From positions 1-36,561 of IMG/VR virus record IMGVR_UViG_3300047300_001178: a stretch of 36,561 nucleotides of DNA; one strand, written 5' to 3'. This DNA is from a virus. Below, one piece after another: positions 25,363 through 32,738 of this stretch (positions within the stretch are counted from its first letter, which is position 1; each line of letters begins with the position of its first letter). The notes under the pieces were generated by a model. It worked only from the letters and a program-made list of their open reading frames with translations. It ran no database searches and was not told the DNA's origin. The position numbers and the translations under genes were made by a program.

Positions 25363-26280
25363 ATGAACCTCAAACTAACCAACAATGCTGCAACCACGCT
25401 GGCTGCAGCAATTTCTGCAAGTGACAGCAGCATTACTTTGACCTCTGGCGGCGGTGCTTTGTTTCCTGCGCTTGCTGCTGGCGAATACTTTTTTGCCACT
25501 CTGGTAAACGCATCAAATAGCTTGGAAGTGGTTAAAGTCACTGGCCGTGCTGGAGACGTTTTAGCAGTGGTGCGTGGTCAAGACAACACAACCGCTCGCG
25601 CATACACTGCTGGCGACAAGGTAGAGCTTCGCTTGGTCGCTGCCGTGTTCTCTGAGATGATTCAGCGCGATGGCTCTGTTGCTATGACTGCCAACTTGAA
25701 TCATGGTGGCTTCAAAGCAATCAACGTAGCAGACCCTATCGCAGCCCAAGATGCTGCGACAAAAAATTACGTTGATACAACTGCGGTTGCCGCAGTCAAT
25801 GCCGAAGCTGCTGCTCGTGCTGCTGCCGATACTGCACTGATAAACAGCACAAACTCCGCAATTGCTTCGGAAGCAGCAGCTCGTGCAGCTGCAGACGCTA
25901 CAAAGGTATCCAAGGCTGGCGACACAATGACTGGCAATCTGACTGTTCAGAACACATCACCAACCATTGTTCTTCAAGATACGGACAACGGAGTAACCAA
26001 GCAACTACACCACAACGCAGACCTGATTGGCTTTTTGTCTAATGACTCAAATTGGTTGATGTACGGCAACAACGGTGGTCAAATCTGGTCGCGTAACTAT
26101 GGATGGTTGCACGATTTCTTTTTCAGTCAAGTGGCAAACTGCGGTGGCGTTTCTGGCTCTGGATATGCTGGAACTGGTATTGCTGGCGGGTACACTTTGT
26201 ATGACGATGGCTATCGAGTTCGACTGAACGGTACTGTCACCATGACTGCTTGTAACTGCGCTTGCTGCGGCTGCTGCTAA
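25363..26280 (+). CDS. Tail fibre protein with Cys-rich C-terminus
   Basis: The product is 305 residues. The N-terminal ~130 residues (SSITLTSGGGALFPAL..GEYFFATL..VVKVTGRAGDVLAVVRGQDNTTARAY) are the usual fibre attachment part, followed by an ADPIAAQDAATKNYVDT segment, an Ala-rich coiled coil (140-182), and GDTMTGNLTVQNTSPTIVLQDTD (187-208) typical of trimeric fibres. The C-terminal domain is Gly/Trp/Tyr-rich. The last nine residues, C297 N C A C C G C C305, hold six Cys; C260 is the only other. Such a tip could bind metal, form disulfides, or be a substrate for the radical SAM and oxygenase genes just downstream. ATG 25363 has AAGGA upstream. Confidence 0.85.
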   Translation: MNLKLTNNAATTLAAAISASDSSITLTSGGGALFPALAAGEYFFATLVNASNSLEVVKVTGRAGDVLAVVRGQDNTTARAYTAGDKVELRLVAAVFSEMIQRDGSVAMTANLNHGGFKAINVADPIAAQDAATKNYVDTTAVAAVNAEAAARAAADTALINSTNSAIASEAAARAAADATKVSKAGDTMTGNLTVQNTSPTIVLQDTDNGVTKQLHHNADLIGFLSNDSNWLMYGNNGGQIWSRNYGWLHDFFFSQVANCGGVSGSGYAGTGIAGGYTLYDDGYRVRLNGTVTMTACNCACCGCC

Positions 26281-26291
26281 GAAAGGCTAGT

Positions 26292-27107
26292 ATGAAAGTT
26301 TATATCGTTCACAACCAAAACCAACCTCACGATGGCCAGCAGTCTGTTCATTTGACCGTTGATGCTGCGGCTGAAACTGTCACTGCGGCTTTGTTGCTTT
26401 CCGACTATCTTGCCGAGGATTCTGGCTCTGAGGTTTTGGAAATCAATGGCAAGGCTTGGAGCGTCAGAGACCGCAAGACAATCCAATTTTCTGCATTGAA
26501 AAATCAGCGCGAGTTTTCAGATAGAACAGCGTTCATGGTTGGCATTGACTGGTCAAAAAATAAATGGTCTGATGGCTTGATTCCCCTCTACGCCGTGTCA
26601 GCAGAAAACAAACTCACTGCTGTTGACTTGGTTAAGACGGGACTCGTGCCGCCACTTGTTGTTGGATTTAATGTCCCGTTTGCGTCGGCCAGCTTTTCTG
26701 AGTGTGACATCACGGTTAACATCCCATCTTCTACCGGAGTTTGCTTGGTTGATGGGTTGCCACAAGATTGCGTTATTGAGTCGCCTTACTCTACGTCCGG
26801 ACTAGTTCGAGAGATGGTAATCTTCCCGGGCTTGGAGGTGAGTGCGCCACAGTCTTCTGCTGCTGGCGATGATATTGAGTTCACTGTAAAAGTCACAGAC
26901 GCATCAGGCAACCCTATTCAAAAAGATGTGCTGCTGTTTTTAGAATCTGTGAACGGCCTACTCCCAGTCAACAGGCTGATGACGAGTAGCGGTCAGGCAA
27001 AGGTCAAAGTTCTCACGAACGGCCTTAGTGCTGGCGGCACTGTCCGACTAAAAGCGGGGTTTAAGTTTTTTGCTGGCGCGGCTGACAAAGAGGTCTTGCT
27101 CACATGA
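26292..27107 (+). CDS. Fibre-associated protein with C-terminal Ig-like domain
   Basis: The product is 271 residues from ATG 26292 (GAAAGG upstream), 11 nt after the fibre stop. The N-terminal half begins MKVYIVHNQNQPHDG and holds three Cys in ECDITVNI..GVCLVDGLPQDC. The last ~85 residues (APQSSAAGDDIEFTVKVTDASGNPI...VLLFLESVNG...ANGLSAGGTVRLKAGF-like) have the strand pattern of bacterial Ig-like domains. It could be a fibre assembly partner or a second substrate for the modification enzymes. The stop overlaps the first oxygenase start as ATGA. Family not recognised. Confidence 0.72.
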   Translation: MKVYIVHNQNQPHDGQQSVHLTVDAAAETVTAALLLSDYLAEDSGSEVLEINGKAWSVRDRKTIQFSALKNQREFSDRTAFMVGIDWSKNKWSDGLIPLYAVSAENKLTAVDLVKTGLVPPLVVGFNVPFASASFSECDITVNIPSSTGVCLVDGLPQDCVIESPYSTSGLVREMVIFPGLEVSAPQSSAAGDDIEFTVKVTDASGNPIQKDVLLFLESVNGLLPVNRLMTSSGQAKVKVLTNGLSAGGTVRLKAGFKFFAGAADKEVLLT

Positions 27108-27682
27108 ATCTAAGAGAGATTTTCTCTGCGCGTGTCTATGTTGGGGTGCATACCTACGAGCAAGATGTGATGTCTCGAATGCGAGATGTCGCCATCGAAA
27201 CAAGTTACGCCCTCAACCCACTTGGTAAGCCTTGGACGAGAAAGTGCAAGGATTCGATTCTGTCAACTGGTGCGTATGACCCGCTGGTCAAGGACTTGCT
27301 TCGAGTCGTTTCTAAGTGCTACGGGTGCGCACCAACATCAATTACAGCGAGAGAGGTAATTGTTCCAAATGGCAGCTTTGTCCCGTTTCATGCAGAAGAC
27401 GCTCACCTTTCGGCGGTCTACTTCGTTGATACATCGGCAACTCCTGAGCCTGAATTGCAGGACTACTCTGGGGCGTTTGTTTTGTCCCACCCCGGCGGGC
27501 CACTCGGAGTTAGGGCGCTTCCTTGGGAGGGGCCAAGAACAGATTTAATTCTGCCAAAGACGGGGAATCTTATTGTTTTCCCGAGCTACTTGGGCCACCA
27601 CTCTTTTACATACAATGGCGAGCGACCATCGGTTGAAATCCACTTTGAGCTAACAGTTCAGGCCATGAATGCAAGTCGTTGA
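27104..27682 (+). CDS. 2-oxoglutarate/Fe(II)-dependent oxygenase-like protein 1
   Basis: The product is 192 residues, ATGA-coupled to the preceding gene. The double-stranded beta-helix fold is suggested by VPNGSFVPFHAEDAHLSAVYFVD (H96-x-E98 as iron ligands, with the LSAVYFV strand as in phage oxygenases of the TIGR02466 type), GNLIVFPSYLGHHS (distal H165 or H166) and the 2-oxoglutarate-binding ERPSVEIHFE (R174). Family members hydroxylate proteins or small molecules. The proximal motif reads HxE rather than the usual HxD. Position suggests a protein target in the fibre block; this is inference. Confidence 0.75.
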   Translation: MNLREIFSARVYVGVHTYEQDVMSRMRDVAIETSYALNPLGKPWTRKCKDSILSTGAYDPLVKDLLRVVSKCYGCAPTSITAREVIVPNGSFVPFHAEDAHLSAVYFVDTSATPEPELQDYSGAFVLSHPGGPLGVRALPWEGPRTDLILPKTGNLIVFPSYLGHHSFTYNGERPSVEIHFELTVQAMNASR

Positions 27683-28247
27683 TGATTTAGTTGACCCGCA
27701 TCTCGCGAAAGCGTCAAGAGAATTTATTGCAGCCACACCGTCCCTGTATGGATGGAAGGCTCACTCGTCTGCGTCTGGGTCTTTTTGGCATCAGAACCAC
27801 GTCCTACCGGGCATCTATGAACATCATTACGATGATGGAACATGGAATCCTGAACTCTCTTATGACGCCTTCGTTAAGAGTGGCAGCCCACTCTCTGTTG
27901 TTGCTGAAAAAATTCGTCACGACTTATTCTGCGGAGTAAAAATGACAAGGGTGTGGGTGAACATTCAAACCTTTGGCGACGAGTCTGCATTTCACAGGGA
28001 CTTCCCTGACAAGTTCATTGGCTCTGCTAGAACTGCTGTTTGGTATCCAGTTGAATCATGGGAGCGAGATTGGGGTGGTGATTTTGTAACCCTTGATAAG
28101 AACGGCGAGATTGATGATTGCATCATGGTAAAGCCAAACAGGTTGGTTGTTTTTGATGGAACAACTCCACACGCGGCTAGGCCAATCTCCCGCTACTGCA
28201 ATGCAACGCGCATAGCAGTTTCTTTTGCTTGTGAGGTGGTTAAGTGA
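27669..28247 (+). CDS. 2-oxoglutarate/Fe(II)-dependent oxygenase-like protein 2 (prolyl-hydroxylase type)
   Basis: The product is 192 residues, overlapping the previous gene by 14 nt. The facial triad is clear: H109-R-D111 in ESAFHRDFPD, H168 in FDGTTPHAARPI and R181 in ATRIAVSF; RTAVWYPVESWERDWGGDFVTLD is the strand between. This is the layout of the prolyl 4-hydroxylase-like 2OG-FeII_Oxy superfamily found in many phages. It likely hydroxylates a protein or peptide side chain. It sits between two other oxygenase-like genes, so the three may act in sequence on one substrate or on different residues. Confidence 0.82.
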   Translation: MQVVDDLVDPHLAKASREFIAATPSLYGWKAHSSASGSFWHQNHVLPGIYEHHYDDGTWNPELSYDAFVKSGSPLSVVAEKIRHDLFCGVKMTRVWVNIQTFGDESAFHRDFPDKFIGSARTAVWYPVESWERDWGGDFVTLDKNGEIDDCIMVKPNRLVVFDGTTPHAARPISRYCNATRIAVSFACEVVK

Positions 28248-28909
28248 TTCACAACTTCTGGCCAACCCCCGTCTATATTGGGACATTGCCTTTCGATGGC
28301 GCATCAATGCTTGAGCTGAAAAGGCATGTTCTTTCCAGATACGAGGCATTTAAGGCATCGCCGCCAAGCTATCCTTTACCGGAGGTTGGTTGCGCTCTTC
28401 GTCCGCAGTTCAATCTGTTCTCCACAGTGGAGGAGGATGGAGCGCCACCCGTTTGGTTTGAGTTCCGCAGATGGGTTGATAAAACATATCGCGACTACCT
28501 AACCGAGACAACCGGGATGAAAAACGCCAGCGACTTAAAAATCGTGGCGCGAGCTATTCCCGGGCACTTTAAGCAAAGAGAGAAGCGCACTCCACCTCAC
28601 TATCATCACACATGCGACCATGTGATGATTACTTATCTTGACTGTGGCGAGAACAGAACTCCATACGAGTTAAGAGATTGGACTATTGGGGATGGTGAGC
28701 TAATACTTCAAGACCCAAGACCAATGGGCGGGTTCCCATTCTGGGACAAAGTGAAGTACATCGACACAAACCCGGGGCTTGTTGTTATTCATCCATCGCG
28801 TCTTTGGCACGAGACCAATGGCTTTCACTCTGATGGCGATAGGGTATTGATTGCCGTAACAATGCGCGTTGAATCGCACAACTACTTTGATATTTACGAG
28901 ACACTCTGA
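28244..28909 (+). CDS. 2-oxoglutarate/Fe(II)-dependent oxygenase-like protein 3
   Basis: The product is 221 residues from GTG 28244, overlapping the upstream stop as GTGA. The opening FWPTPVYIGTLP is the hallmark start of the TIGR02466-type putative oxygenases; PPHYHHTCDHVMITYLDCG supplies the first ligands (H119-x-H121 or H121/H122-D125), WTIGDGELILQDPRP is the middle strand, and GLVVIHPSRLWHETNGF..GDRVLIAVTMR gives distal H189 and R200. It differs clearly from the two upstream genes, so they are not simple duplicates. Confidence 0.78.
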   Translation: MIHNFWPTPVYIGTLPFDGASMLELKRHVLSRYEAFKASPPSYPLPEVGCALRPQFNLFSTVEEDGAPPVWFEFRRWVDKTYRDYLTETTGMKNASDLKIVARAIPGHFKQREKRTPPHYHHTCDHVMITYLDCGENRTPYELRDWTIGDGELILQDPRPMGGFPFWDKVKYIDTNPGLVVIHPSRLWHETNGFHSDGDRVLIAVTMRVESHNYFDIYETL

Positions 28910-28918
28910 AAGACACAA

Positions 28919-30259
28919 ATGAAGTTCACAATCTCTGCAACAAAACGCGACAACTCAGAAAGAGCGTTATTCATTTACGACAATCAATCAAACGAGCTGT
29001 TGCATGAGGATGGTCGTCCGGTGATTGAACCTGTTCATGCGGAGCGTGCCAAGTCGTCCCTTGGTCTTGGCATTGTGGCTGGCAAAGTATCCCCCAAGGT
29101 GTTAAAAATTTCCCTTGGTCTTTCTTGCAACTATGAATGCGAGTATTGCTCGCAGAGATTTGTTCCTAGGTCAAACGAATCAAACCACTCAGAGCTTGAG
29201 AGTTTTATGTTTGGCCTTGATTCTTGGGTAAGCAGTCCTCCGGATAGGATTGAGTTTTGGGGCGGAGAGCCGCTTGTTTACATCAAGACTTTGATTCCAC
29301 TTGCCGAGTCTTTGCGCTTGAAGTACCCAAGAACAGAATTTGCCATCGTCACAAATGGCTCACTGTTGACATCTGAAATCAATGAATGGCTTGATAGGCT
29401 TGGCTTTGTTGTTGGCCTTTCTCATGATGGCCCAGGTCAGCATGTTCGCGGCCCAGACCCGCTTGAAGATGTGGAGAAGCGAGCTGCAATTCTCGACTTG
29501 TATCGACGACTTGCGCCCAAGGGTCGCATGAGCTTTAATGCGATGATGAATCGTGTCAACGTGTCACGCGCCGAGGTTGCCGATTTTTTTATTACCCTGA
29601 CTGGCGACAAGGATGTTCAGGTTGGAGAGGGTGGAATAGTTGATGCGTATGATGAAGGTGGACTTGCGACATCGCTTAGAAGTCAAGACCACGCCGATTA
29701 CAGACGCAGGGCGTTCCTTGAAATTTCAAGCGGACAGGCCAAAAATTTTGACAACATTCGCAAGAAGCTAGTTGGATTTATCAATGCTGTTCGCACAAAG
29801 CGCCCACTTTCTGCGATGGGGCAGAGATGCAGCATGGATAGAAGCGACAATGTTGCCGTTGATTTGCGCGGCAATGTTTTAACGTGTCAAAACGTCAGTG
29901 CGGTCGCCATATCTCCAAATGGAAACTTGCACAAAATTGGCACAGTGGATAGTCTTGAGAGTGTTAATTTGAAGACCGCGATTCACTGGAAGGATAGGGC
30001 TGATTGCCCAAGCTGCCCGGTGGTAAACCTTTGCGGCGGTGCTTGCATGTTTCTTGATGGCCCACTTTGGGACGTAACGTGCAACAACTCTTACTCAGAC
30101 AATATTCCAATCTTTGCCGCAGCTTTTGAATTTATGACTGGATTTGTTCCGGTTCGAATTGATGGCAATTTTAGGGATGACCGCAAGGATGTGTTTGCGC
30201 CAAGCGTGACCCCTGAGCGAACCGAAAAGAAGTTTCCCATTCCGGTTGTGACCGGGTAA
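28919..30259 (+). CDS. Radical SAM/SPASM-domain enzyme
   Basis: The product is 446 residues. The radical SAM cluster motif is C70-x3-C74-x2-C77 (SCNYECEYC), with GGEP at 115-118. The C-terminus carries a full seven-cysteine SPASM set: C304...G318-x4-C323, then C363-x2-C366-x5-C372-x3-C376 and C388, expected to bind two auxiliary 4Fe-4S clusters. Enzymes of this kind modify ribosomal peptides or proteins (sactionine thioether, other C-C or C-S links, anaerobic sulfatase maturation). It follows three oxygenase genes 9 nt after their last stop, downstream of a fibre with a Cys-rich tip. Codon use includes many AGA/AGG and lower GC (two sampled 60-nt stretches 43-47 %) than the left-hand gene. 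Target is inferred, not shown. Confidence 0.9.
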   Translation: MKFTISATKRDNSERALFIYDNQSNELLHEDGRPVIEPVHAERAKSSLGLGIVAGKVSPKVLKISLGLSCNYECEYCSQRFVPRSNESNHSELESFMFGLDSWVSSPPDRIEFWGGEPLVYIKTLIPLAESLRLKYPRTEFAIVTNGSLLTSEINEWLDRLGFVVGLSHDGPGQHVRGPDPLEDVEKRAAILDLYRRLAPKGRMSFNAMMNRVNVSRAEVADFFITLTGDKDVQVGEGGIVDAYDEGGLATSLRSQDHADYRRRAFLEISSGQAKNFDNIRKKLVGFINAVRTKRPLSAMGQRCSMDRSDNVAVDLRGNVLTCQNVSAVAISPNGNLHKIGTVDSLESVNLKTAIHWKDRADCPSCPVVNLCGGACMFLDGPLWDVTCNNSYSDNIPIFAAAFEFMTGFVPVRIDGNFRDDRKDVFAPSVTPERTEKKFPIPVVTG

Positions 30260-32271: not shown

Positions 32272-32738
32272 TGCCTAAGCTTCCCAATACCTACGTTGTG
32301 ATCGGGACGCTGTTGGTGGTCATTGGTTTGTACCAGTATGGCCACCACAAGGGCTGGGCAGAGCGTGATGCCGAGATGCAGTCTGAGATCGCAACCAAAA
32401 ATGAAGAGGCTCGTGAGCGTGAAAACACCATGCGCACTGAGCTCGACAACACACAAAAACAACTGAAAGAAGCCAATGACACCGTTGATCAAAAACAGTC
32501 TGCTCTGGATCGCGCTATCAGTTCTGGCAGGATGCGCCTCCGCTCCTCCAGTTGCGTACAAGCCAGCGCAAGTCCCACCGCTCCCGCCGTCGATCGGAAT
32601 GAAACTCAAACCGAATCTGACCGAGAGACTCTCCGACTTATTGCAGCCATCGCAGCCGACGGCGATAGAGCCATCGTTCAACTCAACGCCTGCATCGACG
32701 CCTACAACGCAGTCAGGGAGCAAGTAAATGGTCACTGA
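32271..32738 (+). CDS. Rz: Rz-like inner-membrane spanin
   Basis: The product is 155 residues. ATG 32271 has AAAGGAG upstream. An N-terminal membrane anchor (about 8-25) is followed by a long charged coiled coil (AERDAEMQSEIATKNEEARERENTMRTELDNTQKQLKEAND...), as in Rz. It works with the outer-membrane lipoprotein Rz1 to fuse inner and outer membranes in the last step of lysis of a Gram-negative host. The Rz1 gene lies entirely within it in another frame. Confidence 0.85.
   Translation: MPKLPNTYVVIGTLLVVIGLYQYGHHKGWAERDAEMQSEIATKNEEARERENTMRTELDNTQKQLKEANDTVDQKQSALDRAISSGRMRLRSSSCVQASASPTAPAVDRNETQTESDRETLRLIAAIAADGDRAIVQLNACIDAYNAVREQVNGH
32476..32727 (+). CDS. Rz1: Rz1-like outer-membrane lipoprotein spanin (nested in Rz)
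   Basis: The product is 83 residues: signal sequence with lipobox LSVLAGC (Cys20), then a Pro-rich mature part (PPVAYKPAQVPPLPPSIGMKLKPN), as is typical of Rz1. It is embedded in the Rz gene in a different frame, the classic lambda arrangement. Its stop immediately precedes the endolysin ATG. Confidence 0.85.
   Translation: MTPLIKNSLLWIALSVLAGCASAPPVAYKPAQVPPLPPSIGMKLKPNLTERLSDLLQPSQPTAIEPSFNSTPASTPTTQSGSK

Follow-up and report, generated by a model that had tools for sequence, protein, structure and literature searches.

A candidate phage-encoded cassette for radical SAM maturation of Cys-rich tail-fibre tips

Introduction

Why should a phage encode a radical S-adenosylmethionine (SAM) enzyme a few genes behind a tail fibre that ends in a cluster of Cys residues? 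The question is raised by IMG/VR record IMGVR_UViG_3300047300_001178, a 36.6 kb linear record analysed here over its full 36,561 nucleotides (hereafter, the window). Its tail-fibre gene is followed by genes for an Ig-like protein, three 2-oxoglutarate (2OG)-Fe(II) oxygenases, and a radical SAM/SPASM enzyme. A preliminary description, made from the sequence alone, proposed that the phage modifies its own fibre tip, with possible effects on stability, metal binding, or host range. Comparative genomics supports that interpretation, and from it we infer both the modification and its chemistry: a phage-encoded cassette for fibre-tip maturation is the best explanation of the locus, with a probability of roughly 0.75. 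The observations established here are the gene content, its conservation, co-occurrence of tip and enzyme in both search directions, covariation between tip and oxygenase, and the predicted fold of the enzyme.

Results

The fibre C-terminus reads ...MTACNCACCGCC, with Cys at positions 260, 297, 299, 301, 302, 304, and 305. The Cys-rich end noted in the preliminary description is real: six Cys fall within the last nine residues, and Cys260 is the only other. At the window Cys frequency of 1.29%, the chance of at least six Cys in a given 9-mer is p = 3.7e-10, or ~4e-6 over 12,000 9-mers. These values, together with recurrence of the cluster in other loci, rule out a chance origin.

To keep the enzyme from choosing the loci, we searched IMG/VR with the codon patterns of CNCNCNC and CNCNCDC alone; all figures from this motif-first scan hold among the matches listed. 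A radical SAM gene was called when the family profile scored >50 bits on the same strand within 5 kb downstream, and at least 3 kb of downstream DNA was required. The scan returned 222 loci, 106 of which hold an open reading frame (ORF) of at least 60 amino acids (aa) with the motif no more than 8 residues from its end. Every C-terminal CNCNC[N/D]C tip was followed by a radical SAM gene (71/71, or 38/38 clusters at 80% identity). The enzymes score >300 bits in 57 cases and lower in 14; the lower-scoring group comprises 11 complete genes with CX3CX2C, one that runs off its contig (L233), and two 99-aa fragments without the motif (L273 and L289). A radical SAM gene also lies downstream wherever the tip is followed by a domain of 130-230 aa (5/5). 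It is found in 0/12 cases behind motif-bearing ORFs of other shape, mostly spurious frames, and in 2/81 cases behind DNA matches outside ORFs. Both of the latter are true tips cut by contig ends, leaving 0/79. The motif-first result and the 0/79 rule out a plain neighbourhood effect of tail genes, and they contradict the possibility, raised at the outset, that Cys-tip fibres occur mostly without the enzymes.

The reverse test started from the enzyme. A profile search gave at least 80 viral loci and 52 bacterial-genome loci, which were merged with the motif-first loci and reduced to one representative per 75% identity. Of the resulting 78 enzymes, five with little upstream DNA and no tip were left out. 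Among the 73 distinct enzymes retained, 64 are preceded by a CxC tip encoded on their own strand. Four more carry a tip elsewhere or in short form: directly downstream of the enzyme in L158 and L326, further along with an Ig-like gene and a second radical SAM gene in L133, and as the short tip YNCNCACK ahead of the Ig-like gene in L038. A tip is therefore present in 68/73 loci, and the same Cys tip recurs beside SPASM genes in other contigs whichever way the search is run, as the preliminary description had anticipated.

Across 96 distinct tips, such as the recurrent Cys-Asn-Cys-Asn-Cys-Asp-Cys, the residues between Cys are N (270), D (75), and A (64), then S, G, T, Q, and Y, so that N, D, or A fills 409 of 486 between-Cys positions (84%). 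The residue preceding the first tip Cys is N in 92 of 111 representatives. The fibres that bear these tips belong to several body families without detectable mutual similarity, with single linkage placing most in one large group. Judged on these comparisons, the tip, not the fibre body, is the common element. It sits either at the extreme C-terminus or directly ahead of a Hint-like domain, which starts at the last tip Cys in Achromobacter phages JWF and 2-1 and in contigs L109 and L036. In L036, a window-like fibre end (NCGGVSGGGYYGTGITGG...GTITLTACACNCNCSTC) precedes the Hint-like domain, whose match is below the Pfam cut-off. This placement suggests that it is important for the tip to be exposed at the C-terminus.

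Cassette carriers include an N4-like phage, siphophages, prophages of Proteobacteria, and marine phage contigs. Across 50,697 records, JWF and 2-1 are the only cultured phages found to encode close homologues, at 47% identity over 96%, and two further family queries returned the same pair. Their gene order is tail hub, small gene, fibre, partner gene, radical SAM enzyme, and endolysin; the fibre carries NCNCDCNCNCSC and then, from the last Cys, the Hint-like domain (Hom_end_hint 3e-12). In other viral contigs the enzyme or its cassette comes immediately after a fibre that ends in NCNCNCDCNCTCK or NCNCACDCNCGG.

Among distinct cassettes, the Ig-like partner is found in 48/64, an Oxy_5 oxygenase in 27/64, another partner type (as in JWF) in 5/64, and oxygenase B in 4/64. 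By this gene content, the core is the tip plus the radical SAM enzyme, usually with the Ig-like partner, and the oxygenases are variable accessories. Several layouts depart from the usual one. Six loci (L118, L181, L331, L150, L228, and L312) have one tip gene and then two or more radical SAM genes; L004, L038, and L060 carry several extra genes between the Ig-like gene and the enzyme, one of which in L004 is fatty-acid desaturase-like. A marine contig (L145, 4014-6044) encodes a DctP-type solute-binding protein and an Asn-synthase-like protein after the enzyme. In Rhodoplanes tepidamans (L122, 9179-11257), the usual single fibre is replaced by three small proteins (72-92 aa), encoded in tandem ahead of the enzyme and rich in Cys at their ends.

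The accessory genes allowed a check for co-evolution, as the preliminary description had suggested. Among 87 cassettes (distinct at 85% enzyme identity), all of those with Cys-Cys-Gly or Cys-Cys-Asp in the tip encode oxygenase B (9/9), vs 0/78 others (Fisher 2e-12). On the enzyme tree, oxygenase B and the CC[GD] tip each change five times, always together. The covariation makes a sharp prediction: oxygenase B should act on the CC[GD] end of the tip.

The enzyme itself carries the complete radical SAM motif and seven-Cys SPASM domain first read from the sequence, with canonical SPASM spacing (CX9-15GX4C, CX2CX5CX3C, C) and profile scores above cut-off (Table 1). Its GGEP-like SAM-binding motif (W114-GGEP) is, like these Cys, invariant in 71 sequences. 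The AlphaFold2 model has a predicted local distance difference test (pLDDT) score of 91.7, and Foldseek places it closest to CteB (1.1e-12) and anSMEcpe (3.6e-11), followed by ChlB, SkfB, SuiB, and TigE, with EpeE also listed. In the model, then, the nearest folds are mostly known peptide- or protein-modifying SPASM enzymes. None of the NCBIfam equivalog cut-offs is reached for QhpD (48.5 of 453 bits), PapB (50.4 of 340), SCIFF (25.7 of 425), or the anaerobic sulfatase-maturating enzyme, anSME (36.6 of 349); the PapB and QhpD models match at E ~1e-13, far below cut-off. Membership of QhpD, PapB, or SCIFF is ruled out by these scores. The JWF homologue is annotated as a sulfatase maturase; for the window's enzyme that assignment is rejected on the anSME score and on the lack of a sulfatase in the cassette. 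The first 60 residues of the enzyme are modelled as strands, and the helices of a winged-helix RiPP recognition element (RRE; RiPP, ribosomally synthesized and post-translationally modified peptide) were not seen there.

Table 1. Features of the cassette and its surroundings, in window coordinates
Feature	Position	Strand	Basis
Tail-fibre protein, 305 aa, proposed substrate	25363..26280	+	Best PHROG tail-fibre match phrog_8469, 1.3e-30
C-terminal Cys tip, residues 297-305, CNCACCGCC	26251..26277	+	Recurrent (C-N/D/A)n tip of the family
Ig-like (Big) partner, 271 aa, proposed tip-presenting chaperone/adaptor	26292..27107	+	PF16640 Big_3_5 / PF02369 Big_1, both below Pfam cut-off
2OG-Fe(II) oxygenase A, Oxy_5 type, HAE variant	27104..27682	+	PF13759 2OG-FeII_Oxy_5 1.2e-6, above cut-off
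2OG-Fe(II) oxygenase B, Oxy_3/FlmC-like, HRD...H	27669..28247	+	PF13640 1.1e-7, above cut-off; NF052475 5.6e-13, below cut-off
2OG-Fe(II) oxygenase C, Oxy_5 type, HYH variant	28244..28909	+	PF13759 1e-6, above cut-off; phrog_81 6.8e-17
Radical SAM/SPASM maturase (putative), 446 aa	28919..30259	+	PF04055 and TIGR04085 SPASM above cut-off; phrog_1802 4e-54
CX3CX2C cluster motif, C70-x3-C74-x2-C77	29126..29149	+	Invariant in 71 sequences
SPASM region, C304-x13-G318-x4-C323 / C363-x2-C366-x5-C372-x3-C376 / C388	29828..30082	+	Seven Cys invariant in 71 sequences
Virion RNA polymerase, ORF cut by left end	2-8692		Matches N4-like family phrog_2206 along 2,880 residues

The Ig-domain gene predicted right after the fibre is recognised by Big_3_5 and Big_1, though below the Pfam cut-off. 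We place its start at an ATG, position 26292; ORF-calling instead begins at a TTG, position 26262. Its AlphaFold2 model (pLDDT 95.4) matches only generic Ig/intimin domains and unnamed phage proteins in PDB and BFVD fold searches, so its role is one that we infer. The three oxygenases all pass Pfam profiles. The facial-triad residues claimed for each hold for oxygenase B, the only one with a textbook HxD...H (H109-x-D111 and H168); they are uncertain for A, which has HxE, and for C, which has HxH. The PHROG family phrog_274, labelled 'DNA endonuclease V', matches oxygenases B and C, and the label looks wrong.

The fibre is identified by its homology to PHROG fibre families and its place among tail genes, with an endolysin beyond. 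Its tail region (~20.4-26.3 kb) leads into the cassette and on to an endolysin gene at 32728. From fibre through radical SAM enzyme, the six genes run head to tail on the same strand, either overlapping slightly or separated by no more than ~11 bases. The virion RNA polymerase match, together with genes at 9-20 kb for a primase, ribonucleotide reductase, and thymidylate synthase and genes for an exonuclease and a Sak4-like protein, marks the window as a fragment of an N4-like podophage. No RNA families or tRNAs were found in the window or cassette, and promoter and terminator scans across the cassette region gave nothing informative.

The five enzymes with no tip in the locus are chromosomal, and two of them have telling neighbours. 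L123 adjoins a fused nitroreductase/YcaO protein, YcaO being a RiPP enzyme, and L119 adjoins an ABC exporter; these neighbours point to RiPP-like roles in the outgroup. In an Oligoflexia genome (L132, 8701-8952), a Cys- and Gly-rich peptide of 83 aa lies just before a chromosomal enzyme relative and is a likely cellular substrate.

Other phage radical SAM loci were compared (SPN3US, Thermus phage Cumys, Campylobacter phage CPt10, and gut scaffold MT836984), and none has CNC tips. The jumbo phage SPN3US (L361, JN641803; 4100-4916 and 6190-8305) has two radical SAM genes and, upstream of them, two ORFs of ~133 aa that encode Cys-rich repeats (CSGGCSSSCTGNCTGGC...); the annotated gene at that site is called in a different frame. 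In Cumys (L362, PQ109079; 5940-8230), a radical SAM gene whose own product ends in His-x-Asp repeats directly follows the gene of a 344-aa protein that has dozens of the same repeats, possibly a His-based analogue.

Discussion

We propose the following sequence of events. The fibre would be made with a C-terminal alternating-Cys run, (C-N/D/A)n, which the radical SAM/SPASM enzyme would bind and modify before or during virion assembly; that the tip is the enzyme's substrate is very probable. The Ig-like partner is probably an adaptor or chaperone that presents the tip. Since every second residue of an extended strand points to the same side, the Cys at the end of a trimeric fibre could be displayed along one face. 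The likeliest reaction would be formation of thioethers from tip Cys sulfurs to carbons of neighbouring Asn, Asp, or Ala, giving a rigid, oxidation-proof knob, although this assignment is tentative, at slightly less than even odds. Optional 2OG oxygenases would then hydroxylate residues in or beside the tip, with the type-B enzyme acting on Cys-Cys-Gly/Asp ends such as that in the window. In relatives with a Hint-like domain after the tip, that domain should excise itself by self-cleavage, exposing the finished tip. A role of the modification in adsorption or stability is favoured at somewhat better than even odds.

The chemical proposal draws on two known systems. In quinohemoprotein amine dehydrogenase, a SPASM enzyme makes Cys-to-Asp/Glu thioethers in a protein subunit of the same operon, and a partner oxygenase hydroxylates that protein (PMC7876137). 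QhpC/QhpD/QhpG is the closest working model, with a SPASM enzyme and oxygenase encoded alongside their protein substrate, but it serves a bacterial periplasmic enzyme rather than a virion, builds a cysteine tryptophylquinone (CTQ) cofactor, and uses a dedicated protease to remove a leader. Ranthipeptide enzymes make Cys-Asp S-Cbeta links in Cys-rich C-termini, with Cx3D spacing in PapA (PMC8172795). Freyrasin (PapA/PapB) and SCIFF (CteA-CteB) share with the window a Cys-rich C-terminus beside a SPASM enzyme, and CteB is the nearest solved structure; their precursors are small and leader-bearing, whereas here an alternating CxC array ends a large fibre protein. By analogy with both systems, cross-linking of tip Cys to the intervening N, D, or A is the likeliest activity of the phage enzyme.

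Other relatives are more distant in function. Sactipeptide and other RiPP maturases (SkfB, SuiB, and ChlB) share the fold and SPASM-type architecture, but they belong to systems with peptide products, a leader, export, and usually a protease, and the phage model shows no N-terminal RRE fold. The anaerobic sulfatase-maturating enzyme likewise acts on a residue of a full-size protein; in the phage cassette, by contrast, the candidate site is a multi-Cys tip. Phage fibre accessory genes, such as fibre chaperones and Hint-bearing fibres, resemble the cassette in lying directly after the fibre and before lysis genes, as in JWF and 2-1. A RiPP precursor is short, with leader and core; the candidate here is a 305-aa fibre, full-size in most relatives, L122 excepted. 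Because the system falls outside both the RiPP pathway and every named SPASM family, we set it apart as new. What is new is the system, radical-enzyme maturation of a virion tip; the enzyme superfamilies themselves are known.

Several points weigh against tip maturation. The case for it is one of comparative genomics throughout; co-occurrence cannot tell which residues change, and it is compatible with the enzyme acting on another cassette protein. Some cassettes have no Ig-like partner or oxygenases, and a CxC tip is lacking near five chromosomal relatives of the enzyme. Five independent changes allow the sign test on the covariation to reach p = 0.0625 at best, which is short of significance, and the CC[GD] rule was noticed in the data before being tested.

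The main rival concerns the reaction and leaves the core of tip maturation in place, competing only with the thioether step. The enzyme may epimerise Asn, Asp, or Ala, form C-C cross-links, or carry out sulfur chemistry, with the thiols then available for metal or disulfides. Epimerases and enzymes that form C-C bonds are found among SPASM-type and related radical SAM enzymes, Foldseek lists EpeE and SuiB, and the predominance of N, D, or A between the Cys would suit such chemistry. Set against this, the best neighbours include thioether-forming enzymes, as the CteB structure and the weak PapB and QhpD matches indicate, and alternating Cys form an obvious thioether donor array. We regard other chemistry as possible, if on the improbable side.

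A more radical departure is that the tip is a metal-binding or disulfide knob formed without the enzyme, which would modify a small molecule or host factor. Metal-bound tips are known on phage membrane-attack needles. The fibre-to-lysis stretch, as a collector of accessory genes, would explain the enzyme's place, and marine surveys have counted phage radical SAM genes among the auxiliary metabolic genes (PMC5332604, PMC7150976). Such a knob would not, however, give 71/71 co-occurrence among the matches listed, the same tip on unrelated fibre bodies, or an oxygenase B that tracks the tip, and the enzyme has a full SPASM domain and folds like peptide maturases; we consider this account unlikely. 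Still less probable is a phage-borne RiPP cluster that releases a small peptide, a bacteriocin or signal, with the fibre as carrier only. The three small proteins of L122, the ability of Hint-like domains to cleave, and the RiPP-like loci of chromosomal relatives fit release, but no exporter or peptidase was recognised in the window's cassette, the tips sit on full-size fibres in a tail operon, and cleavage by the Hint-like domain, given where it begins, would keep the tip attached to the fibre. A viperin-like nucleotide enzyme, antiviral or directed against competitors, prompted by an NCBIfam viperin model among the best weak matches (51.3 bits vs a cut-off of 180), is ruled out by that score and by the seven-Cys SPASM domain of all enzyme relatives, which viperins to our knowledge lack; Foldseek, moreover, puts SPASM peptide maturases first, and the linkage to the Cys tip would go unexplained.

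Conclusion

We know of no description of a radical-based modification of a viral structural protein. A search of 5.39 million open papers, with subscription journals and preprints mostly outside its scope, turned up none in which a fibre tip is modified by a radical SAM enzyme or an oxygenase, in keeping with the initial impression that no described system has this exact gene set; the system appears undescribed. Radical SAM cassettes have been noted in the tail-fibre region of pelagimyophages (PMC7029224).

Taken together, the findings make it likely that this is a widespread mobile system, by which phages cross-link and decorate their own receptor-facing fibre tips through radical SAM chemistry and tip-matched oxygenases, a new form of virion maturation. 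The cultured Achromobacter phages JWF and 2-1 carry the cassette, and the tip is a short C-terminal peptide, making the system directly testable. If correct, the proposal would explain the recurrence of radical SAM and oxygenase genes beside tail fibres, as well as many of the phage radical SAM and 2OG genes currently classed as auxiliary metabolic genes. It would also provide a large natural collection of SPASM enzymes that modify proteins and come with their substrates built in, and would add a chemical layer to phage host recognition.

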